From: Cryobacterium glaciale
GTDB lineage: Bacteria; Actinomycetota; Actinomycetes; Actinomycetales; Microbacteriaceae
NCBI RefSeq assembly: GCF_004402535.1
Contig: NZ_SOEY01000019.1
Location: forward strand, 142,447-206,446
Direction of reading: 5' to 3'
DNA: 64,000 bases
In this document: one piece after another, positions 34,575-44,870 of the stretch
Layout: each line of letters begins with the position of its first letter
Numbering within the stretch: position 1 is the stretch's first letter
Position numbers and translations under genes: made by a program
Notes under the pieces: model-generated
What the model was told of the DNA's origin: nothing
What the model saw: only the letters and a program-made list of their open reading frames with translations
Database searches by the model: none

Positions 34575-35624
34575 TCAGCGCTCGAGCTGGGCCAGCAGCG
34601 CCTCCAGGAACGCCGCCGGGTGTTCGAGGTGCGGCGAGTGTCCACAGTCGGCCAGTTCCAGTTCGGTCACCTCTCCACCGGCGGCCCGGTAGGCGTCCAG
34701 CACGGCGCGGGTCTGTTGGATCATCGGCTGCGGCGGCGCGACCTCGGCGCCAGGCCAGCCCGGAATGACGCCGAGTTGGCCGAGAAAGTTGAGGTCGAAG
34801 AACGAGGTATCCGACACGATGACGTCGTCGCTGCCGTGGATCCACAGGATGGCCGGTTTCTCAGCCAGGTCGACGATGCCGGTCGTGTTGAAGTGGCCTG
34901 GCGACATGGTATTGAGCACGCCGTTGCCGCCGGGAGCAAAGCCGGGCCAATTCTCGGAATGGATCGAGTCCCCCGGATAGTTGCCGATGCCGGTCGCCGT
35001 GGTGAGCATCGACTCAACCCAGATGTCGTCGTGCTCCGACGTGAACGGCGGCTTGACGTAGGTGGTCTGGTAGACGGTACGCGGGCTGGTCGGGTCGGAA
35101 CCGCGATCACCGCTCTGCAGCCGGGCGATGAAGTCGGGGTTGGCCCCGCCACCGCCCGTGCCGGCATCGTCGAGGGTGAGCCGATGACCATCCGCTCCCC
35201 CGGTACCGCCGAAGCCGTAGGGCGAGACCGGAGCGACCAGGGTCAGCGTACTAATCAGCCCGGGGTGGTCGAGCAGCAGCTGCATCGTCACACCGCCACC
35301 CATGCTCCACCCCACCAGGTGCGCCCGGTCGACGCCGAGCTCGGCGAGCACTGCGGCGACATCGTCGGAATAGTCGGCCAGACCGCGCGTGGCATCGACC
35401 GGCAGGATCGCACTGGTGCCGAAACCGCGCAGGTCGATGGCGAGCGCCCGTACCGACGCCGGCAAGGCCAGCATGAGCGGCTGCCAGAAAAGGGACGACG
35501 ACACGTTGCCGTGTACAAAGACGACGGTCGCGGTCTCGGCTGCTGTAGCCGGCCGTTCCAGCACGCCGGCGCGCAGCCGCGGGGTGAGAACGCTGCGTTC
35601 GGTGATGCCGTCGAATATAGTCAT
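34575..35624 (-). CDS. Alpha/beta hydrolase
   Basis: This 349-residue protein has an alpha/beta-hydrolase fold. It shows the oxyanion-hole motif VFVHGN, the nucleophile elbow GWSMGG, the acid in HGSDDVIV and the histidine in DCGHSPHLE. A large Gly/Asp-rich cap (GFGGTGGADG, GTGGGGANPD) lies after the nucleophile and may close over a bulky substrate. ATG 35624 overlaps the preceding hydrolase by 4 bp. It is the last gene of the liv/acyl-CoA-ligase operon. An ester, lactone or C-C bond of the imported compound is a plausible substrate. Confidence 0.85.
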   Translation of the reverse strand: MTIFDGITERSVLTPRLRAGVLERPATAAETATVVFVHGNVSSSLFWQPLMLALPASVRALAIDLRGFGTSAILPVDATRGLADYSDDVAAVLAELGVDRAHLVGWSMGGGVTMQLLLDHPGLISTLTLVAPVSPYGFGGTGGADGHRLTLDDAGTGGGGANPDFIARLQSGDRGSDPTSPRTVYQTTYVKPPFTSEHDDIWVESMLTTATGIGNYPGDSIHSENWPGFAPGGNGVLNTMSPGHFNTTGIVDLAEKPAILWIHGSDDVIVSDTSFFDLNFLGQLGVIPGWPGAEVAPPQPMIQQTRAVLDAYRAAGGEVTELELADCGHSPHLEHPAAFLEALLAQLER

Positions 35625-36520
35625 GTCGGGGTCCTCTCTGACTCCATGATCTGCTCCTTCACGGCCTGCGCCACCCGGTCGGCGCCACGGTTGCTCATAA
35701 CGATTGTGTAGTGATTGACGTCGTCGACCTCGTGCACGGTCAGGGTCGGCAGCGACGCCGACCAGTCGGCGGCGGCCGCGCGGTCGTAGAGCGCGGTCGG
35801 TTCGTCCTGCAGCCCGCGCGGTGCCCGCAGAAAGTCGATTGGCACGCTGAGTCCGGCCAGTGCCTCGGCGAACCCGTCGGAACCGTTGAGTTCCATCACG
35901 TTTTCGGCCACGGCTGCCAGCCGCGCCGATGGGTGCAGCAGCGGCGCGGCACCGTCGAGGTCGTACCGGGCGAAATCGGCCACCCGAGACGACCAATCGG
36001 ACGCGAACGCGGGGTGACCGCGCCAGAAGTCCAGGTACGCCGTCTCTGTCTCGAAGGTCTGCGACAGTCGTTCGGCCGCCGGGCCGAGCATGAGCAGCGG
36101 GTCAATTCCAGCGTCACGAGGAATGGGCAAGCCACCGTCGACCAGCACGAGCGAGTCGACCCGGTCGGGGTTGAGATGCGCGAGCCAGACGGCGACGAAC
36201 GCACCCATCGAGTGACCGACCACGACCGCTCGGTCCACCTCCAGAAAGTCCAGCAGCCGGGCCAGATCGTCGGCGTGGCGACGCAGCCCGAATGGTCCGG
36301 GCAGCGCGTTGCTGCGAGCGCGCCCGCGCAGGTCGGGAGCGATCATCCGCTGGCCGGGCAGGCGGTCGGCCAGCCACGGCCAGGTCAGGTGGGAGGCGGT
36401 GATGCCATGGATGGCGAGTACCGTCGCCTCGTCCTCGCCCGGTTGCTCGGCGCGCCACTGGCCGCCGAACAGGTCTCCCCCGGCAACCGGGGCACGGAAC
36501 GGCTGATACTCGTCTCTCAC
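35621..36520 (-). CDS. Alpha/beta hydrolase (lipase/esterase-like)
   Basis: This 299-residue protein has an alpha/beta-hydrolase fold with VLAIHGITASHLTW (oxyanion region), VVGHSMGAFVA (nucleophile Ser) and VNHYTIV (catalytic His). The catalytic acid is not obvious, since the usual strand-7 position reads FLRAPRGLQ. It overlaps its neighbours by 4 bp on both sides. It has little visible similarity to the second hydrolase outside the fold, so the pair is unlikely to be a recent duplication. The substrate is unknown, and the operon points to carboxylic acid or ester breakdown. Confidence 0.85.
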   Translation of the reverse strand: MRDEYQPFRAPVAGGDLFGGQWRAEQPGEDEATVLAIHGITASHLTWPWLADRLPGQRMIAPDLRGRARSNALPGPFGLRRHADDLARLLDFLEVDRAVVVGHSMGAFVAVWLAHLNPDRVDSLVLVDGGLPIPRDAGIDPLLMLGPAAERLSQTFETETAYLDFWRGHPAFASDWSSRVADFARYDLDGAAPLLHPSARLAAVAENVMELNGSDGFAEALAGLSVPIDFLRAPRGLQDEPTALYDRAAAADWSASLPTLTVHEVDDVNHYTIVMSNRGADRVAQAVKEQIMESERTPT

Positions 36521-37191
36521 GGGTTCCTCACTTCAGCGTGTCGCGTGGCGCCGAGCGCACCCTCGATGAAGCGCATCATCTGCTCGAAGACGTGCTCGGG
36601 CACAGCCCGGGTTCCGCTCGCGAACGGATCGGCTGCGGAGCCCTCGACGCCCTCGTCGCCGCTGGCCTCGTCCCCCCACAACACCCAGCGCATGCCGATC
36701 ATTTCACCGATGCCCATGAGTGCCCAGGCGGCGACGGTCGGATCGATGTCGCTGATCTCCCCCGCCGCTCCGGCCGCCCGCAGGCCGGTGATATACCCCT
36801 CGACGATGCGGGTGTAGTGCAGGCGGAGGGCGCCAGGCGAGACGAATTCCGCCTCGCGAATCACCCGGTACAGGGCCGGGTGGTCGGCGGTGAATTGAAA
36901 GAAGGCCCGAAACCCGGCGCGCTCCGAATCGATGCGGTTTTCCGTCGCAGCGGATGCCGCACTCATCGCCAACCGCACGCGGTGATTCAGGTCCTCAACC
37001 AGTTCGTCGAAGATCTGCAGTTTCGAGTCGAAGTACAGGTAGAACGTGCCCTGGCCGATGCCGGCGGCATCCGTTATGCGCGAGATCGACGCGTCGGCGT
37101 AGCCGACCCGCGAGAACACCTGCTCGGCGGCCTCGATGAGTTTGCGTTTCGTTTCTTCGCCTCTGGCGGTGCGCGGCATTCCGGCGCTCAT
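36517..37191 (-). CDS. TetR-family regulator inside liv/ligase operon
   Basis: This 224-residue repressor-like protein has an N-terminal helix-turn-helix (ISRITDAAGIGQGTFYLYFDSK) and a ligand domain with FFQFTADHPALYRVIREAEFV. That domain recalls TetR proteins of fatty-acid and acyl-CoA metabolism, which sense acyl-CoA. The gene lies within the operon, overlapped by 4 bp on each side, so it probably controls its own expression in feedback. A weak quasi-palindrome at 43599-43610, in the livK-thiolase gap, is the candidate operator. Confidence 0.85.
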   Translation of the reverse strand: MSAGMPRTARGEETKRKLIEAAEQVFSRVGYADASISRITDAAGIGQGTFYLYFDSKLQIFDELVEDLNHRVRLAMSAASAATENRIDSERAGFRAFFQFTADHPALYRVIREAEFVSPGALRLHYTRIVEGYITGLRAAGAAGEISDIDPTVAAWALMGIGEMIGMRWVLWGDEASGDEGVEGSAADPFASGTRAVPEHVFEQMMRFIEGALGATRHAEVRNP

Positions 37192-38747
37192 TGTTCGTGT
37201 CCTATCTTCTCAAAATCAAGACCGTGGTGCCAATGCTCCAGCAGCTGGCGCCGCAGTACCTTGCTGCCGAGGGATCGTGGAATCTCCGGCAGGAAACGCA
37301 CGAACGCCGGCACCTTGAATGCGGCCAGCTGGGTGCGGGCGTAGGCCAGGATGCCAGCCTCATCGGGCGAGAAGCCTGGCGCCAGCACGATGAAAGCGGC
37401 GCCGACCTCGCCCCAGCGCTCGTGCGGAACCCCGATGACGGCGACGTCGGCGACCGCGGCGTGCTCGATCACAACGGTTTCCACCTCGGCGGGAGCGACG
37501 CTCTCACCGCCGGAGATGAAGATGTCGGTGAGCCGGTCAAGCACGGCGAAGTAGCCGTGCTTGTCGCGGCGCACGAGGTCGCCGGTGTGCAGCCAGCCGC
37601 CGCGCAGGGTTCGGGCGGTCTCCTCCGGGGCGCGAAAGTAGCCGGAAAACACGCCGGGACCGCGCACGAGCAGTTCGCCAGTGGCGGCACCCCCGAGCAG
37701 GTCGCCGGTGACCGGATCGGCCACGGCAACCTCCACGTGCGGGTACGGCTTGCCGGCATAGCCGACCATGCTGCGCGCCTCGTCGTCGGGCAGGCACAAC
37801 ACGTTCGGGGACGCTTCGGTCAGCCCATAACCCTGGGTGAGGGCCACACCGCGGGCGTGCCAGGTGCGCAGCAGCGGCGCCGGCATTGGCGCCCCGCCGA
37901 CGACGGCATGGTTGAGACTGGACAGGTCTGTCGCGGCAAAGTCCGGGTGTTGCGCGAGGAACAGGTAGTTCGCTGGCACACCCATCATCGTCGTGATGCG
38001 GCGGTCCGCGATGAGGTGCAGCACCCGACCGGGGTCGAAGGTGCGCTCGAGCACGACGGTTGCGCCCATCCACCAGGCCAATAGCGGCTGAATGTTCCAG
38101 CCGCCCACGTGATACTGCGGCATGACCGAGAGGACGACGTCCTTGCTGGTGATCTCGGTGATGCGGGAGAGCGACAGGTTGGTCCAGAAGCAATTCGAGT
38201 GGGTCAGCACGACGCCCTTGGCCGGGCCGAGGGTGCCGGAGGTGAACACGATCAGCAGGGGGTCGTCGTCCTGCACGGATCGGGTCACCAGCGGCTCGTC
38301 CCAGCCGCGGCGCGGGGACGGCACGACCGTTTCAACACCACGAACGCCGAGCAGCGTTGACGGGAGAGGCCCGGGAAGTCGACTCTGGGCATCCGTTGCC
38401 AGGGTTTGGAACTCGTCTTCCACCAGCAACAGTGCCGGATCAGCGAGCTGCAACTGCGCGGCGAGCTCCCGGGGCGCGAGCCGCCAGGATAGCGGCACGA
38501 GCACGATGCCGGCCTGGGCGCAGGCGAAGAACAGCACGACCTGGTCCGAGCTGTTGCCGGTGATGGTCGCGACCCGGTCACCGACGCCGAATCCGGCGGC
38601 GCGAAACGCTGCGGCGAGGTCGCCGGCCCGGTCGTCGAGGTCGCGGTAGCGCAGTGTGACGCCGCGGTCGTCGACGGCGACGCGTTCGGGGGTGGCTCTG
38701 GCGCGGTCCCGGGTCCACCGGCCCAGGGTGTGCAGGTCGTCGGTCAT
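37188..38747 (-). CDS. AMP-dependent acyl-CoA synthetase/ligase
   Basis: This 519-residue class I adenylate-forming enzyme has the P-loop-like TSGTLGPAKGVVLTHS, the A5 motif QGYGLTEASP, the A7 region GDLVRRDKHGY and the C-terminal catalytic lysine in GSKVLRRQL. It should activate a carboxylic acid to its CoA thioester through an acyl-AMP. Position after a liv-type importer and near a thiolase suggests that the imported acid is its substrate. Chain length or aromaticity cannot be told from sequence. It is overlapped by livM and the TetR gene. Confidence 0.9.
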   Translation of the reverse strand: MTDDLHTLGRWTRDRARATPERVAVDDRGVTLRYRDLDDRAGDLAAAFRAAGFGVGDRVATITGNSSDQVVLFFACAQAGIVLVPLSWRLAPRELAAQLQLADPALLLVEDEFQTLATDAQSRLPGPLPSTLLGVRGVETVVPSPRRGWDEPLVTRSVQDDDPLLIVFTSGTLGPAKGVVLTHSNCFWTNLSLSRITEITSKDVVLSVMPQYHVGGWNIQPLLAWWMGATVVLERTFDPGRVLHLIADRRITTMMGVPANYLFLAQHPDFAATDLSSLNHAVVGGAPMPAPLLRTWHARGVALTQGYGLTEASPNVLCLPDDEARSMVGYAGKPYPHVEVAVADPVTGDLLGGAATGELLVRGPGVFSGYFRAPEETARTLRGGWLHTGDLVRRDKHGYFAVLDRLTDIFISGGESVAPAEVETVVIEHAAVADVAVIGVPHERWGEVGAAFIVLAPGFSPDEAGILAYARTQLAAFKVPAFVRFLPEIPRSLGSKVLRRQLLEHWHHGLDFEKIGHEQ

Positions 38748-39850
38748 ATCTCCTCCACCTCAAGCATGCGCTCCCGGCTGCGACGTGACGGCCGATGCGG
38801 CCGCCCGCCGCGTTCGGTCAGGCCGGCGAGCCCTCCCGGAAGGAACAACACCACGAGAATAAACAGGGTGCCGAGAATGAACAACGGCTGCGACAGCGGA
38901 ATTCGCAGCAGGTCGGGCAGTCGGGCGATGAACTCGGACCCGGCAAGGGCGGTCAGCCGCTGGTCGAGCAGCGTGTAGACGATCGCGCCGAGCACCGCAC
39001 CCCAGCGCAGCCCAACGCCGCCGAGCACGACGATCACGAGCAGCGTCAGGGTGAAGTCCGGCGTCGCGACCCGAGGAGACACCCCGCTCTGCAACAGCAG
39101 GAACGCGGCGCCGGCCAGGGCGGCGAGCGCACCGGCGATGCCGAAGATGAGCAGTCGCACAAAGTAGGGACGGATGCCGATGACGCGTGCTCGTTGTTCG
39201 TTTTCGCGCGTCGCGGCCACGACGTGCCCGGCTCGCGACTTTTCCACCCACAACACCACGAGGTAGACAAAGACGAGCACCGCGAGCGAAAGCCAGTACA
39301 GGTTGCGGGTGTTGAGCACCCCAACGAGAGCGTCGGGCACGTGTGAGACGTCGAGGGTGAGCCCTTCCTCACCGCCGGTCTGCCCGCCCGGGTTGCGGCG
39401 TACCACGACCGAACCGGCCTGCGCGAAGGCGAGGGTGACCATGGCGAAGGAAATGCCGGTGACGCGCAAACTCACCGATCCGACCAGCGCGGCCAGGACG
39501 AAACCGATCAGCACGGTGATGAGGATGGCCGCGACGAACGTCGCGCCGGCCGGCAACCAGCTCGGCGAGAAGTTGCGCAACACGATGCCGAGACCGTAGG
39601 CCCCGGCCGCGAAGAACAGCGCATGCCCGAACGAGAGCATGCCGGCCAGCCCGAACAGCAGGTGGTAGCTGAGCGCGAGGGCCGCGATGAGCATGGCGTA
39701 GGCGAGCAATTGCAGGGTGCCCGGAGTGTAGGTCGGGCCTGGAAAGACCCCGGGAATGCTGATATTCAGCAGCGGCAGCAGCAGCATGAGCAGCACCAGG
39801 GCGGAACTCGCGGCTATTTTCGTGACCGGTCGGGCCCAGATCGATCTCAT
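38744..39850 (-). CDS. livM: Branched-chain-type ABC importer permease LivM
   Basis: This 368-residue inner-membrane permease has about nine helices and the signatures HLLFGLAGMLSFGHALFFAAGAYG near the N-terminus and ATRENEQRARVIGIRPYFVRLL in the cytoplasmic coupling loop. A basic C-terminal tail of about 25 residues follows the last helix. The open frame extends far upstream through livH, but LivM similarity starts at MRSIWARPV, giving ATG 39850 with a 4-bp overlap of livH. Confidence 0.92.
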   Translation of the reverse strand: MRSIWARPVTKIAASSALVLLMLLLPLLNISIPGVFPGPTYTPGTLQLLAYAMLIAALALSYHLLFGLAGMLSFGHALFFAAGAYGLGIVLRNFSPSWLPAGATFVAAILITVLIGFVLAALVGSVSLRVTGISFAMVTLAFAQAGSVVVRRNPGGQTGGEEGLTLDVSHVPDALVGVLNTRNLYWLSLAVLVFVYLVVLWVEKSRAGHVVAATRENEQRARVIGIRPYFVRLLIFGIAGALAALAGAAFLLLQSGVSPRVATPDFTLTLLVIVVLGGVGLRWGAVLGAIVYTLLDQRLTALAGSEFIARLPDLLRIPLSQPLFILGTLFILVVLFLPGGLAGLTERGGRPHRPSRRSRERMLEVEEI

Positions 39851-40722
39851 GCTTTTGCTCCCAACAGTCCGCGCGGGCGCAGCAGCAGCACCGCGGCGAG
39901 GGCGAGCACCACGGCGAGGTCGCCGGTGCCGCCGAGATAGAAGTTCGCGAACTGCTGCAGCACCGCCACGAGAACGGATGCGATGGCCGCCCCCGCAAGG
40001 GACCCCAAACCTCCGATGACGGTCACGATGAAGGCGAAGATCAGCAGGGATCCACCGATGTGCGCCGAGACGTAGCCGTAATAGATCGACGCGAGCACCC
40101 CGCCGAGGCCGGCGGCGGCGCCGCCGATCGCGAAGACCAGGGTGAAGGCGCGGCGCACGTCGATGCCGAGCGCGGTGACCATGAGCCGATTCTCGACGCC
40201 GGCCCGAATGATCAGGCCATACCGGGTGAACTTGAGGAACAGTACGATCGCCGCGAGCACGAGCACCGCCACGACAATGAGCATGAACCGGTTGTTCGGA
40301 ATGCGAGCACCGAGAATCTCGGTGGTCTGCCCGAGCCAGGACGGGCTCGTGACATAGGTCGGGTCGGTGCCCCAGATTCCTTCGAACAGGGCAACGGAGG
40401 CGAGTGCGAGGCCGACGGTCACGAGTACCTGTTCGATGTGCCGGTTGTACAGCCGACGGATCAGAAAGAACTCGGTCGCTGCGGCGACGAGCGCACCGAC
40501 GACGGCTCCGGTCAGCATGGCGGCGGCAAGCGCCCACCAGGATCCGTCGCTCAGGCGGCGGGCGACCTCCCAGCCGATGAAGGCGCCGATGGTCAGGAAT
40601 GATCCGTGTGCGAAGTTGAGCACGCCCATGAGGCCATAGATGAGGGAGAGGCCGGAGGCGACCAGAAAGTACAGGGCGCCGAGGCCGAGGCCGGTGATGA
40701 GCAGCAGAACGATGGTACTCAT
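39847..40722 (-). CDS. livH: Branched-chain-type ABC importer permease LivH
   Basis: This 291-residue permease with about eight membrane helices has the LivH N-terminus GLGLGALYFLVASGLSLIYG, then MGVLNFAHGSFLTIGAF and the coupling loop IIRAGVENRLMVTALGIDVRR. It pairs with LivM to form the membrane channel. It overlaps livF and livM by 4 bp each. Confidence 0.92.
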   Translation of the reverse strand: MSTIVLLLITGLGLGALYFLVASGLSLIYGLMGVLNFAHGSFLTIGAFIGWEVARRLSDGSWWALAAAMLTGAVVGALVAAATEFFLIRRLYNRHIEQVLVTVGLALASVALFEGIWGTDPTYVTSPSWLGQTTEILGARIPNNRFMLIVVAVLVLAAIVLFLKFTRYGLIIRAGVENRLMVTALGIDVRRAFTLVFAIGGAAAGLGGVLASIYYGYVSAHIGGSLLIFAFIVTVIGGLGSLAGAAIASVLVAVLQQFANFYLGGTGDLAVVLALAAVLLLRPRGLLGAKA

Positions 40723-41480
40723 GCCCGCACCGTCGCATCCGTCTGTCCGGCACTGCTTCGCTCCGAGCCGCTGTGTACGCCCAGGTAGCGCTGGATGCGT
40801 TCGGGGTCGTCGAGCAGTTCCGTGGCCTCACCGGTGAAGACGACGCGACCACCGGACAGCACGACCACCCGGTCGGCGAGCTGCCGGATGACCTGCAGGT
40901 TCTGTTCCACCAGCAGGATCGGCACCGTTTTCGCGGCGGCGAGCAACGCCTGGGCGACCTCGCCGACGATCTTCGGCGAAAGTCCCTTGGTGGGTTCGTC
41001 GACCAGCAGCAGCCGGTTCTGGTTCAGCAGGGCGCGGGCAACAGACACCATCTGCTGCTGTCCGCCGGAGAGCGTGCCGGCCAGCTGGGCCTGGCGCTGC
41101 ACCAGGTCGGGGAAGAGTTCCTCGACCAGGGCCCGGTTGGGGTGCGCGGAGCGTTCAGCCAGTTTCAGGTTCTCGGCGACGGTGAGCTTGCCGAAAACCT
41201 CACGGTCTTCCGGCACGTAGCCGACGCCGAGCTGCACGACCTTGTGGGTCGGCAGCCGGTCGACCCGGCGTCCGCCCAGAGTGACTTCGCCGCTGCGGTC
41301 GATCAGGCCGAGGATCGACTTGATCGTGCTGGTCTTGCCGACGCCGTTGCGGCCGAGCAGTGCGGTGACTCCGGTGTCTGGCACGTCGAACGAGACGTCT
41401 TCGACAACCTGTTGCCCCTCGATACGGCCGTACAGATTTCGCACGGTGAGGATGTTGGTGGTGCTCGAGTTGGTGCTCAT
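40719..41480 (-). CDS. livF: ABC importer ATP-binding protein LivF
   Basis: This 253-residue ATPase has Walker A GRNGVGKTS, signature LSGGQQQMVSVARAL, Walker B LLLVDEPTKGLSP and an H-loop near the end. The roughly 235-residue LivF core is followed by a short tail. With LivG it powers the import of a branched, aromatic or other hydrophobic carboxylate or amino acid. Confidence 0.92.
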   Translation of the reverse strand: MSTNSSTTNILTVRNLYGRIEGQQVVEDVSFDVPDTGVTALLGRNGVGKTSTIKSILGLIDRSGEVTLGGRRVDRLPTHKVVQLGVGYVPEDREVFGKLTVAENLKLAERSAHPNRALVEELFPDLVQRQAQLAGTLSGGQQQMVSVARALLNQNRLLLVDEPTKGLSPKIVGEVAQALLAAAKTVPILLVEQNLQVIRQLADRVVVLSGGRVVFTGEATELLDDPERIQRYLGVHSGSERSSAGQTDATVRA

Positions 41481-42247
41481 ACCGGGTCTCCGAGGTAGGC
41501 GGATTGCACCGTGGGATTTTTCATCACGGCATCGGGGGTGTCGCAGGCGAGCAGCTCGCCGTGGTGCATGACCGCAACGCGGTCGACCAGACCGAGTACG
41601 ACCTCCATGTGGTGTTCGACCATGAGCACGGTGCAGCCACCGTGGTGCAGGCCGCGAATGACTTCCATCAGGCCGGGGATATCGCCCGAGCCCACGCCGG
41701 CCATCGGCTCGTCGAGCAGGATGACGCTCGGATCCATGGCCAGCAGCATCGCGATTTCCAGCTTGCGCTTGTCGCCGTGCGAGAGGCCGCCGGCCAGGCT
41801 CTGCGCGTGGTCGGCGAGGCCGACCTCGTCGAGTTGGGCAGTGGCCAGCCGGGTGGCGGCATCCGTTACCCGGGGAAACCGGGTGACGAGGCTGCCGCCG
41901 CCGGCCTTGGCCTGCGCGGCCAGACGCACGTTCTCGGTAGCGCTGAGCCCGTTGAACAGGCTCGAAGTCTGAAAGGTGCGGCCGAGACCGGCCCGTGCCC
42001 TGACATGGATCGGTTCCCGGGTCATGTCGCGGCCGTTTTGCCGCACCACACCTTCCGTGGCGAACATCACGCCGGAAATCAGATTAAACAGGGTTGTCTT
42101 ACCGGCCCCGTTGGGGCCGATCACACCGAGCATCTCGCCCCGCGGGATCGACAGCGACACATCGTTGAGGATGCGGGCACCGCCGATCTGCAGTCCGACA
42201 CGCTCTAAGGTGAGCACAGCCATGCTGAGCACGGGCTGGTGCGACAT
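41477..42247 (-). CDS. livG: ABC importer ATP-binding protein LivG
   Basis: This 256-residue ATPase has Walker A GPNGAGKTTLF, signature LAGGLSHGDKRKLEIAMLLA and Walker B VILLDEPMAGVGSGD. The LivG-type helical insert is visible around LGRTFQTSSLFNGLSATENV. The frame is open to 42295, but that part overlaps livK. I choose ATG 42247, just after the livK stop. ATG 42223 is possible. Neither has a clear ribosome-binding site, so coupling to livK translation is likely. Confidence 0.9.
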   Translation of the reverse strand: MSHQPVLSMAVLTLERVGLQIGGARILNDVSLSIPRGEMLGVIGPNGAGKTTLFNLISGVMFATEGVVRQNGRDMTREPIHVRARAGLGRTFQTSSLFNGLSATENVRLAAQAKAGGGSLVTRFPRVTDAATRLATAQLDEVGLADHAQSLAGGLSHGDKRKLEIAMLLAMDPSVILLDEPMAGVGSGDIPGLMEVIRGLHHGGCTVLMVEHHMEVVLGLVDRVAVMHHGELLACDTPDAVMKNPTVQSAYLGDPV

Positions 42248-42251
42248 CGGG

Positions 42252-43466
42252 TTACTTTGCGGCGGTGACCGGCGGGGCGACGGTCTTCGCGTCAACGGTC
42301 TCGATCAGTTCCGGCGACCACGTGCCATCGGTGCCTTCCTTGAGCGTCGCCTGGAACATCGGCTGCAGCACGGCGTGGTCTTCGGCGCGAATGGTGAGCG
42401 ACCCCTTGACCGAGTCGAAGGTGTAGCCCTCGAGCGAAGCGATCATGTCGTCGACGTTGTCGCCGCCGCCTTCACGCACGGCCTGCACGAGCAGCTGCGC
42501 GGCGACGAAGCCGTCGGGCGAGAACAGGTCGGCCTGCGCTTCGTTGGCCTCGAGGTAGCTGATCATGGCCTTGCTCTGCTCGTTGTCGGTGGCCGACGCG
42601 AAGTAGTGCGACAGGAAGCTGATCTTGCTGCTCGCCTCGCCGTAGGCACCGTAGGTCGAGACGTCACCGAGTCCGGTGACCACGGGAACAGCGTCGAAGA
42701 CGCCCTGCTGCTGCAGTGCGGTCCACATAGCGCCGGTGCTGGCACCGGCCCATGCGACGAAGATGAGGTCGGGTGAGGCGTCCAATAGCTGCTGAGCGAA
42801 CGGCGTGAACTCGGTCGCGTCTTCGGCGACGAGTACGCCGTCGACGGTTGCGCTCTTGGCACCGAGCACGGCCTGGACACCGGCGAGGTTGCCTTGACCG
42901 AAGGCGTTGTCCTGGGCGAAGACTACGATCTTCTTGCCGCTCGGGTCGCCGATGAAGGTTCCGGCGGTCGCGACATCTTCGTAGGTCTGACGTCCGGAAC
43001 GGAAGGTGTAGTCGTTGATGCCGGTGATGGCGTCGGCCGCGGCCGGGCCGGAGATGTACAGGATCTTGTTCTGCGCGGCCTGCTCGGCCAGGGTGACGGC
43101 GATGCCAGAGGCGACGGTACCGGCCAGAATCTGGTAGCCCTGTCCGATCAGGTCCTTGGCGACCGAGACGGCGGTATCCGGGTTGCCCTGGTCATCCTTC
43201 CAGGTGATGTCGAGCTCTCGGCCATCGACCGTGCCGGTGCCGTCGGTCGCGTAGTCGAGGCCGGCCTCGAAGCCGGCGGTGTACGCGGCGCCATAGGCGG
43301 CGAGCGGGCCGGTCACGGAGGTGATCATGCCTACCTGCACGGCGGCCTTGTCGGTGGAATCGGTGACTGCTGTGCCGCCGGTCGTTGCCGTGGGTGCGCA
43401 TCCGACCAGGGTGAGGGCGGCGACGGCGATGAACGCCGGGGCCAGGAACATCTTCGTTACCCGCAT
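42252..43466 (-). CDS. livK: ABC importer substrate-binding lipoprotein LivK
   Basis: This 404-residue protein has a lipoprotein signal peptide (basic start, FIAVAALTLVGC lipobox, Cys about residue 23) and a type I periplasmic-binding fold (MITSVTGPLAAYG, AKDLIGQGYQILAGTVASG, FAQDNAFGQG). It is anchored outside the membrane and binds the imported solute. Genes around it suggest a carboxylic acid rather than leucine. ATG 43466 is set by the signal peptide and an AGAGG upstream. It is the first gene of the nine-gene operon. Confidence 0.92.
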   Translation of the reverse strand: MRVTKMFLAPAFIAVAALTLVGCAPTATTGGTAVTDSTDKAAVQVGMITSVTGPLAAYGAAYTAGFEAGLDYATDGTGTVDGRELDITWKDDQGNPDTAVSVAKDLIGQGYQILAGTVASGIAVTLAEQAAQNKILYISGPAAADAITGINDYTFRSGRQTYEDVATAGTFIGDPSGKKIVVFAQDNAFGQGNLAGVQAVLGAKSATVDGVLVAEDATEFTPFAQQLLDASPDLIFVAWAGASTGAMWTALQQQGVFDAVPVVTGLGDVSTYGAYGEASSKISFLSHYFASATDNEQSKAMISYLEANEAQADLFSPDGFVAAQLLVQAVREGGGDNVDDMIASLEGYTFDSVKGSLTIRAEDHAVLQPMFQATLKEGTDGTWSPELIETVDAKTVAPPVTAAK

Positions 43467-43598
43467 GAAATTAGCCTCTGTTCTTTTTAGTTGCTTGCTG
43501 TTGATTTGGGGTGGTGCCAGGAGGTGCCGGGGAGGGACTACCAAGAAAACGACCCAAACATGACAGGTGGTTCAGGTATCAGGAATCTAGGGGCGATC

Positions 43599-43610
43599 GA
43601 CGCTAGTGTC
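43599..43610. promoter_or_regulatory. Quasi-palindrome, candidate TetR site
   Basis: GACGCTAGTGTC matches its own reverse complement at 10 of 12 positions. It lies midway between livK and the divergent thiolase, where a regulator of both would bind. The match is weak. Confidence 0.25.
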
Positions 43611-43673
43611 AAGGGTCAGGCGTAAACCGATACCCAGACGTGGCCAATATGCTGAATACCTCACCTCATTGAC

Positions 43674-43680
43674 AAAGGAG
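43674..43680 (+). promoter_or_regulatory. Strong ribosome-binding site of thiolase
   Basis: AAAGGAG is 5 nt before ATG 43686. Unlike many genes here, this one has a leader, with a likely -10 at TATGCT about 30 nt upstream. Confidence 0.6.
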
Positions 43681-43685
43681 TCCCG

Positions 43686-44870
43686 ATGACCGAAAACGAC
43701 GTCGTAATCCTGGCCGGATCACGCACCCCGCAGGGTCGCGTGAACGGGCAACTCTCGTCCCTCACCGCCGTTGACCTCGGCGCCGCCGCCATTGCCGGCG
43801 CTCTAGCGCGCGCCGGAGTGGCTCCGGAGCAGGTCGATTTCGTGCTCATGGGGCAGGTCCTGCAAGCCGGCTGCGGGCAAAACCCGGCCCGGCAGTCCAG
43901 CGTGGCTGCCGGCATCCCGTGGAATGTGCCGGCCGTAACGCTCAACAAGGTGTGTCTCTCTGGCCTGGCGGCGGTCATCGATGCCGCCCGTCTGGTGCGG
44001 CTCGGCGAGGCGGACGTGGTGGTGGCCGGTGGCCAGGAATCCATGTCGCGCGCTCCCCACCTGCTGCCGGGCTCCCGCCAGGGCTGGGCCTACGGAACGG
44101 TCTCCGCCCTCGACCACGCCGCCCACGACGGCCTCACCGATGCGTTCGACGGCCTCTCGATGGGTCTCTCCACCGAGCGTGCCAACGCGGAGCTCGGCCA
44201 GACCCGGCTCGAGCAGGACGAGATCGCCGCTGCCTCGCACCAGCGGGCCGCCGCCGCAGCCGCGAGCGACCTGTTCAGCGACGAGATCACCCCGATCAGT
44301 GTGCCGCAGCGCAAGGGCGAGCCCCGCCTGATCAGCACCGATGAGGGCGTCCGCGCCGAGAGCACGACCGAGACGCTCGGCCGGCTGCGCCCGGCCTTCG
44401 ACCCGGCGGGAAGCATCACCGCCGGCAACGCCGCCCCCTTGAGCGACGGCGCGAGCGCGGTCGTCGTCACCAGCCGCGCCTGGGCCGAGAAGCACGGCCT
44501 GCCCTGGCTCGCCGTGATCGAGGCGAGCGGCCAGGTCGCCGGCCCCGACAACTCCCTGCACTCCCAGCCGGCCAATGCCATCCTGCACGCCCTCACCAGG
44601 CAGGGGTGGACTGCGGCCGACCTCGACCTGATCGAGATCAACGAGGCGTTCGCCTCGGTCGTGGCCCAGTCGTCGAAGGTGCTCGGGGTTTCCGCCGACG
44701 TCGTGAATATTCACGGCGGGGGCATCGCGATCGGTCACCCGATCGGGTCAAGCGGCGGGCGCGTGGCCCTGCATGCCGCGCTCGAACTGGCTCGGCGCGG
44801 CACCGGCAAGGCCGCCGTCGCACTGTGCGGCGGCGGCGGTCAGGGCGAGGCGCTGCTCCTGTCCCGGTAG
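43686..44870 (+). CDS. Thiolase (acetyl-CoA C-acyltransferase)
   Basis: This 394-residue thiolase has the acyl-accepting cysteine in TLNKVCLSGLAAV (about 88), the histidine block NIHGGGIAIGHPIGSSGGR and the second catalytic cysteine in ALCGGGGQGEA. It either cleaves 3-oxoacyl-CoA in beta-oxidation or condenses acetyl-CoA. Divergence from the liv/acyl-CoA-ligase operon favours degradation of the imported acid after CoA activation. No dehydrogenase, hydratase or 3-hydroxyacyl-CoA dehydrogenase is nearby, so the middle steps must come from elsewhere. Confidence 0.93.
   Translation: MTENDVVILAGSRTPQGRVNGQLSSLTAVDLGAAAIAGALARAGVAPEQVDFVLMGQVLQAGCGQNPARQSSVAAGIPWNVPAVTLNKVCLSGLAAVIDAARLVRLGEADVVVAGGQESMSRAPHLLPGSRQGWAYGTVSALDHAAHDGLTDAFDGLSMGLSTERANAELGQTRLEQDEIAAASHQRAAAAAASDLFSDEITPISVPQRKGEPRLISTDEGVRAESTTETLGRLRPAFDPAGSITAGNAAPLSDGASAVVVTSRAWAEKHGLPWLAVIEASGQVAGPDNSLHSQPANAILHALTRQGWTAADLDLIEINEAFASVVAQSSKVLGVSADVVNIHGGGIAIGHPIGSSGGRVALHAALELARRGTGKAAVALCGGGGQGEALLLSR

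Follow-up and report, generated by a model that had tools for sequence, protein, structure and literature searches.

What does a liv-type ABC transporter import when its genes run in one unit with an acyl-CoA ligase, a TetR-family regulator and two different alpha/beta hydrolases? The question is raised by a locus at positions 34575–44870 of the stretch of Cryobacterium glaciale DNA analysed here (64,000 nucleotides of contig NZ_SOEY01000019.1; hereafter the window), which belongs to an assembly of 3.7 Mb in 35 contigs. The genes run in the order livK-livG-livF-livH-livM-ligase-tetR-hydrolase 1-hydrolase 2 (the last two hyd1 and hyd2), with a thiolase gene diverging from livK. An earlier note, made from the sequence alone, assigned the set to the import, hydrolysis, CoA activation and cleavage of an unknown acid and remarked that the middle steps of beta-oxidation were missing; profile scans upheld its family label for every part. 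From comparison with related genomes, we propose that this is probably a scavenging operon for 3-hydroxybutyrate (3HB) in ester form, either as short 3HB oligomers from bacterial poly(3-hydroxybutyrate) (PHB) or as small 3HB esters.

Related operons encode 3-hydroxybutyrate dehydrogenase and a CoA transferase

Among 149 related genomes, 28 (C. glaciale included) carry a long match to hydrolase 2 of at least 250 bits; in one of these, Cryobacterium G021, the match spans residues 39–348 and has an internal stop codon. Of 29 stretches that were fetched, 25 contain a long hydrolase 2 match, one (L058) has scraps of hydrolase 2, and three with a weak core match (L064–L066) were set aside. In the four stretches read first (L044, L049, L050 and L055) the operon has an additional short-chain dehydrogenase gene between tetR and hydrolase 1, and all of these but L049 have two additional genes between the hydrolases. 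The three dehydrogenases scanned all pass the 3-hydroxybutyrate dehydrogenase (BDH) model TIGR01963 (317, 310.9 and 314.1 bits against a cut-off of 307.05), and the additional gene pair of L044 is identified as subunits A and B of 3-oxoacid CoA-transferase (SCOT; TIGR02429, 240.1 against 128.5 bits; TIGR02428, 332.2 against 243.55 bits). BDH and both hydrolases without the transporter are present in L045, L046, L048, L051, L052 and L053; L071 has the order livH-livM-ligase-tetR-BDH-hydrolase 1-SCOT, with hydrolase 2 on a separate contig of the same genome; and L047, L054, L056 and L057 have hydrolase 2 with none of BDH, hydrolase 1, SCOT or the operon neighbours. Of the 28 genomes with a long match in this whole-genome sample, 11 have BDH no more than 10 kb away from hydrolase 2.

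The same genes were counted by tblastn with fixed identity thresholds in 80 named loci, the best 80 of 466 confirmed candidates; the sequences are related, hence not independent events, and several of the loci are short contigs on which an absent neighbour says little. Hydrolase 1 is present in 35 loci, BDH in 28, the five liv genes in 23, the ligase and TetR in 21 each, SCOT A and SCOT B in 12 each and the thiolase in six. All 28 BDH loci have hydrolase 1, and the seven loci with hydrolase 1 but no BDH comprise six from Cryobacterium and a contig of 5 kb whose end lies immediately upstream of hydrolase 1. Hydrolase 1 accompanies the liv genes in all 23 liv loci, the ligase and TetR in 21, BDH in 17 and SCOT in 11; the six liv loci without BDH are all from Cryobacterium. 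BDH with both hydrolases extends across Agromyces, Homoserinimonas, Salinibacterium, Leifsonia, Pseudolysinimonas, Diaminobutyricibacter, Nostocoides, Microbacterium and others. In a Microbacteriaceae metagenome bin (L110) a single cluster reads livKGFHM-ligase-tetR-BDH-hyd1-SCOT-hyd2, followed by homologues of an MFS transporter (71%) and a LysR-family regulator (45%). A LysR homologue also diverges from the liv-BDH-hydrolase genes in two loci that have no ligase or TetR (L092 and L117), and adjoins BDH and the hydrolases in four further loci. On a short Microbacterium azadirachtae contig (L135:1-5980), BDH-hydrolase 1-hydrolase 2 occurs twice, face to face, perhaps as an assembly artefact.

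The comparative search that the earlier note had recommended thus recovered the same operon in other genera, with BDH and often SCOT added. 3HB is catabolized by 3-hydroxybutyrate dehydrogenase, SCOT and acetoacetyl-CoA thiolase. Because the operons of relatives hold BDH and SCOT, the 'unknown acid' can be narrowed to 3HB or a close relative, probably released from an ester. By the same evidence the absent steps would belong to the ketone-body route and not to beta-oxidation: no beta-oxidation middle step is encoded in the operon, as had been noted, but the middle step of the proposed route is BDH, and this is encoded elsewhere in the C. glaciale genome.

The proposed route and its genes in the C. 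glaciale genome

In the route that we favour, LivK would capture a 3HB ester or the acid outside the membrane, LivFGHM would import it and hydrolases 1 and 2 would free 3HB inside the cell. Oxidation of 3HB to acetoacetate would fall to BDH, whose gene is in the operon in relatives but elsewhere in C. glaciale; the acetoacetate could be activated by SCOT, by an acetoacetyl-CoA synthetase encoded elsewhere or by the operon ligase, and a thiolase would then cleave acetoacetyl-CoA to two acetyl-CoA. Gene content, gene order and family assignments are read from the sequence, whereas the substrate, the transport direction, the specificity of the ligase and the regulation are inferred.

BDH is absent from the operon in the window. 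An orthologue with 74% identity to the BDH of L044 is encoded elsewhere in the genome (G000:C26:10827-11576); it narrowly passes TIGR01963 (308.8 against 307.05 bits), and the solved structures nearest to it carry the name 3-hydroxybutyrate dehydrogenase. It adjoins an MFS transporter gene and a divergent LysR-family gene, as in two other Cryobacterium genomes that were checked (L072 and L073); the top match of this transporter is a metabolite/H+ symporter model, under its cut-off (401.5 against 443.45 bits). In the Cryobacterium genomes with the complete operon that were checked, BDH is placed elsewhere; Cryobacterium G021 instead has its only close BDH inside the operon locus. The C. glaciale genome also encodes an acetoacetyl-CoA synthetase (TIGR01217, 728.1 bits), found in two of 20 genomes, and three CoA-transferase B matches, located in a pair within the pca cluster, on a 7-kb contig beside similar genes, and beside an IclR-family regulator. 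Since BDH, the synthetase and CoA-transferase matches are all present, a complete 3HB route can, as far as gene content goes, be assembled from this genome. The 7.1 kb contig (L070; G000:C34) and the pca cluster (L068) hold two similar CoA-transferase gene sets.

A lactonase-like hydrolase, a CoA transferase and a thiolase would also make up a pathway of the 3-oxoadipate (pca) type. Both hydrolases do match PcaD weakly (58.4 and 61.7 bits), and SCOT and PcaIJ share a family model. The PcaD cut-off of 255.85 bits is not reached by either, however, the thiolase scores 262.8 bits against the PcaF cut-off of 597, and the 3-oxoadipate route has no place for BDH. The C. glaciale genome has a separate pca cluster, L068, with PcaDC above cut-off (497.5 against 390 bits), together with a CoA-transferase pair and a thiolase belonging to that cluster. 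On the failed cut-offs and the presence of a pca cluster elsewhere we rejected this route as very improbable.

The hydrolases and the link to PHB

Hydrolase 1 (35621-36520, reverse strand), the partner of BDH in relatives, is by family a generic alpha/beta hydrolase (PF00561, 77.5 bits). Hydrolase 2 (34575-35624, reverse strand) is PhaZ-like: its top NCBIfam match is the intracellular short-chain polyhydroxyalkanoate (PHA) depolymerase model NF050089, and its top match in the PDB by sequence, profile and fold is PhaZ of Bacillus thuringiensis (8ynv/8ynw). PhaZ scores 105.9 bits in the profile search and the runner-up 75. The predicted structure of hydrolase 2 has a pLDDT of 96.8, and a Foldseek search with it placed six PhaZ chains on top. 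In VIA-align, PhaZ gave a Z score of 32.2 (root-mean-square deviation 2.6, 271 aligned residues, 27% identity) and the runner-up 29.8 (2.5, 262 aligned, 16% identity). Because many generic esterases score no more than 3 to 4 Z units below PhaZ, the substrate of hydrolase 2 cannot be read from the fold alone.

The presumed catalytic triad consists of Ser107, present in 37 of 38 aligned sequences, and Asp267 and His329, present in all 38; all three residues are present in 14 of 14 sequences of a more diverse set. The best named matches to hydrolase 2 among those listed are six Cryobacterium records with 87–91% identity. The sequence that differs at the presumed nucleophile Ser107, with an Asp unlike the other 37, is from Zafaria cholistanensis (L128:10001-11032). 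An actinobacterial-type hydrolase 2 was also found on a 6-kb contig of Stenotrophomonas maltophilia P13 (L130), probably through assembly contamination.

In one Cryobacterium genome (G043; L060:16356-18452) hydrolases 1 and 2 form a single open reading frame of 698 residues, which hints that the two may act together, although a sequencing error is possible; no transporter or ligase was found at that locus.

PHA synthase (PF07167) was found in none of 20 genomes tested, with a positive Caulobacter control. Mobilization of an own PHB store was rejected on this result; a storage polymer made by these bacteria is unlikely, and imported esters or oligomers are the simpler reading. No PHB-esterase domain (PF10503) above cut-off was found in C. 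glaciale, so extracellular depolymerization would fall to other organisms or to an unrecognized enzyme.

The transporter and the predicted ligand site of LivK

The five liv genes, all on the reverse strand, have the make-up of a general HAAT/liv-type ABC importer: LivK (42252-43466) is a lipoprotein-like substrate-binding protein of the Peripla_BP_6 family (PF13458, 200.8 bits), LivG (41477-42247; PF00005 and PF12399 above cut-off) and LivF (40719-41480; PF00005 above cut-off) are the two ABC ATPases, and LivH (39847-40722; PF02653, 137.6 bits) and LivM (38744-39850; PF02653, 128.7 bits) are the two BPD_transp_2 permeases.

Going by these family names, the transporter would take up branched-chain amino acids and the genes that follow it would be unrelated. 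LivK does not pass the LivJ/LivK model, scoring 61.3 bits against a cut-off of 477. In the alignment of LivK with E. coli LivJ, the LivJ residues Glu226, Thr102, Tyr150 and Tyr202 are replaced by Thr, Ala, Phe and Ala respectively in 20 of 20 orthologues, and Ser79 is kept. We take Glu226 and Thr102 of LivJ to be residues that hold the alpha-amino acid ligand, Glu226 by its ammonium group. A separate HMMER pairwise alignment of LivK with the Leu-bound protein 4n0q puts the same Thr opposite the Glu of the Leu-binding protein, which supports the register. As the presumed ammonium-holding residue is replaced by Thr, an alpha-amino acid is an unlikely ligand for LivK. In a study of Rhodopseudomonas palustris, Leu, Ile, Val or short amides gave a shift with very few of 22 such binding proteins, the ligands being other amino acids or aromatic, fatty or dicarboxylic acids (PMC3223731). 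Branched-chain amino acid uptake was rejected on the failed model and the loss of Glu226, and we regard it as highly improbable; binding of branched-chain amino acids only, which the earlier note had named as a refuting case, is accordingly not favoured by the predicted ligand site.

The nearest solved relative of LivK is RPA4397 of R. palustris (3n0x, 30% identity), the listed title of which names no ligand; the structure matches after it are hydroxybenzoate-bound proteins, with the Leu-bound 4n0q at rank 10. The predicted model of LivK is of middling quality (pLDDT 77.7). The operon might serve an aromatic or fatty acid, in the fashion of the R. palustris liv-type systems, with BDH and SCOT as incidental neighbours, and one of the nearest solved entries for the ligase is named a feruloyl-CoA synthetase. 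Such a role is difficult to reconcile with the finding that every one of the 28 BDH loci, from many genera, also has hydrolase 1, or with SCOT inside the operon, and no ring-cleavage or beta-oxidation gene was recognized in the clusters read (by reading and comparison with the operon genes, short of a full family scan). We consider it distinctly unlikely. A second liv-type transporter is encoded in C. glaciale (L184:6230-14301; G000:C35), followed by two dehydrogenase-like genes, with an acetoacetyl-CoA synthetase gene (TIGR01217) on the opposite strand.

The ligase, TetR and evidence against a 3HB substrate

The AMP-forming acyl-CoA ligase (37188-38747, reverse strand; PF00501, 280.6 bits, and PF13193, 68.8 bits) and the TetR-family regulator (36517-37191, reverse strand; PF00440, 52.7 bits) co-occur in 21 of the 80 named loci and neither was found alone. 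As the two genes come and go together, TetR probably senses the product of the ligase. The nearest solved relatives of the ligase are 8weu/8wev (feruloyl-CoA or fatty-acyl-CoA synthetase) and FadD13, and alignments with these do not fix its substrate, whether dicarboxylate or aromatic.

The ligase is the weakest link of the 3HB reading. Where SCOT is in the same cluster a ligase is redundant for acetoacetate and may act on another acid, and two of the 23 liv loci (L092 and L117) lack the ligase and TetR yet keep BDH and both hydrolases. Further findings also weigh against this reading. Hydrolase 2 falls far under the PHA-depolymerase cut-off (112.8 against 300 bits) and belongs to a widespread family; 45 of the 80 named loci, mostly from Microbacterium, have it without hydrolase 1, and in 12 of these 45 that were inspected no 3HB gene lies beside it. 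Given the failed cut-off and this distribution, hydrolase 2 may be a general esterase. The PHB-esterase domain is above cut-off in just three of 20 genomes, C. glaciale not among them. The BDH of C. glaciale clears its cut-off by less than 2 bits; the thiolase, among the models listed, passes the general thiolase model and no specific one (acetyl-CoA C-acetyltransferase model PRK08235, 411.8 against 526 bits); and the nearest ligand-bound structures for LivK hold hydroxybenzoate, with a Leu-bound one also listed.

The redundancy of the ligase could be explained if the imported ester had two fates, with the hydrolases releasing 3HB for oxidation by BDH together with another acid, to be activated by the ligase and sensed by TetR as its acyl-CoA. 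The pairing of ligase and TetR, including their joint absence from the two loci that retain BDH and the hydrolases, is in agreement with this, as is the presence of the ligase alongside SCOT in 11 liv loci, where acetoacetate does not need it. However, no enzyme for a second acid was recognized in the clusters read, the nearest solved relatives of the ligase leave its substrate unfixed, and the pairing is not absolute: in L048, from the whole-genome sample, a tetR homologue (61%) lies behind a merely distant ligase (36%). We judge a two-fate ester to be unlikely, if less so than an aromatic or fatty acid.

The thiolase and the history of the locus

The divergent thiolase described in the earlier note is present (43686-44870, forward strand) and passes the acetyl-CoA C-acyltransferase model TIGR01930 (403.9 against 240.55 bits), its best matches being acetyl-CoA acetyltransferases. 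It is not specific to the operon. Of 57 Cryobacterium genomes, nine have LivK (E ≤ 1e-80), 12 have a long hydrolase 2 and 39 have the thiolase (E ≤ 1e-150); 27 of these 39 have no long hydrolase 2. Of these 27 genomes, 26 were fetched together, giving 27 thiolase loci, and one (L058) had been fetched earlier; the distance between ispG and the thiolase is at most 1 kb in each of the 27 loci, and five of them have gaps of about 0.9 kb. Membership of the operon was rejected on this distribution (39 of 57 congeners, as against nine for LivK), by which the thiolase is best described as a resident neighbour. The suggested sequence of import, hydrolysis, CoA activation and cleavage thus fits the gene content, but its last enzyme lies outside the unit. 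In two genomes from another family (G131 and G115) a thiolase with 63% similarity directly follows hydrolase 2 on the same strand; its function would therefore fit the 3HB reading, while operon membership in the window still lacks support.

Some Cryobacterium loci have scraps of the operon: hydrolase 1 in L159, hydrolase 2 and livK in L163, and hydrolase 2 in L058. In another (L042:13161-15175; G016) broken liv genes (livM and livH split, livF partial) stand beside the hydrolases and tetR. Such remains point to a probable stepwise loss of the locus in several lineages of Cryobacterium.

Comparison with known systems

The operon shares the five-component architecture of the E. coli LIV-I system (LivJ/LivK-HMGF) and differs from it in that the amino acid-binding residues are not kept in LivK. 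Hydrolase 2 has the G-W-S-M-G-G and G-H-S-P motifs of B. thuringiensis PhaZ; it differs in failing NF050089 and in aligning poorly past the first ~140 residues, and PHA synthase is missing from all 20 genomes. As regards known 3HB catabolism, the BDH and SCOT of the related operons are above curated cut-offs and the neighbouring thiolase resembles acetyl-CoA acetyltransferases, whereas the operon has in addition a ligase, two hydrolases and an importer that depends on a binding protein, and C. glaciale encodes its BDH at another locus, beside an MFS transporter.

Another parallel is the R. palustris ABC transporter cluster with the binding proteins RPA3723-3725 beside pimFABCDE, in which an organic acid importer likewise adjoins genes for a CoA ligase and for acyl-CoA breakdown; the pim genes are for beta-oxidation of fatty and dicarboxylic acids, whereas here there are two hydrolases with BDH and SCOT (PMC3223731). 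Liv-type uptake of organic acids joined to their catabolism is thus already known as a kind, of which the 3HB-ester system would probably be a variant.

PHB from dead cells and bioplastics is degraded extracellularly to oligomers and monomers. We tentatively suggest that a liv-type importer dedicated to 3HB oligo-esters, with paired cytosolic oligomer hydrolases, may allow actinobacteria that seem incapable of making PHB to subsist on PHB breakdown products from other organisms. Among the titles and abstract openings of the open-licence papers listed in searches on 3HB uptake, no importer for 3HB oligomers is described, nor is a livKGFHM-ligase-tetR-hydrolase operon in any of the papers listed. 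The conserved operon, by joining an importer, two hydrolases and BDH, names testable genes for 3HB oligomer uptake, and replaces the default label of 'branched-chain amino acid transporter' on such genes with a specific, checkable prediction.

Organization of the locus

The unit, which the earlier note had described as having seven successive 4-bp overlaps, was confirmed: the livK stop and livG start are separated by 4 nucleotides, and all seven junctions from livG, whose end overlaps livF, through hydrolase 2 are 4-nucleotide overlaps. Such overlaps occur at just seven of the 33 remaining same-strand junctions of the window and eight of 39 in three other C. glaciale stretches, counts that hinge on a simple codon-score gene caller trained on the window genes. 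At these frequencies seven overlaps in a row would hardly arise by chance (about 0.21^7). Most of the overlaps are kept in orthologous clusters from other genera (16 loci examined).

Inspection of the conserved livK-thiolase spacer by eye revealed no convincing TetR operator. The spacer contains a predicted, unmapped livK promoter (43584-43612, reverse strand) with a sigma-70-like consensus match, TTGACA-17-TAGATT; its boxes and spacing are identical in seven of seven aligned Cryobacterium sequences. Housekeeping genes flank the locus, with ispG and a class II tRNA synthetase gene (read as proS) on one side and an M50 peptidase gene (rseP-like) and dxr on the other.

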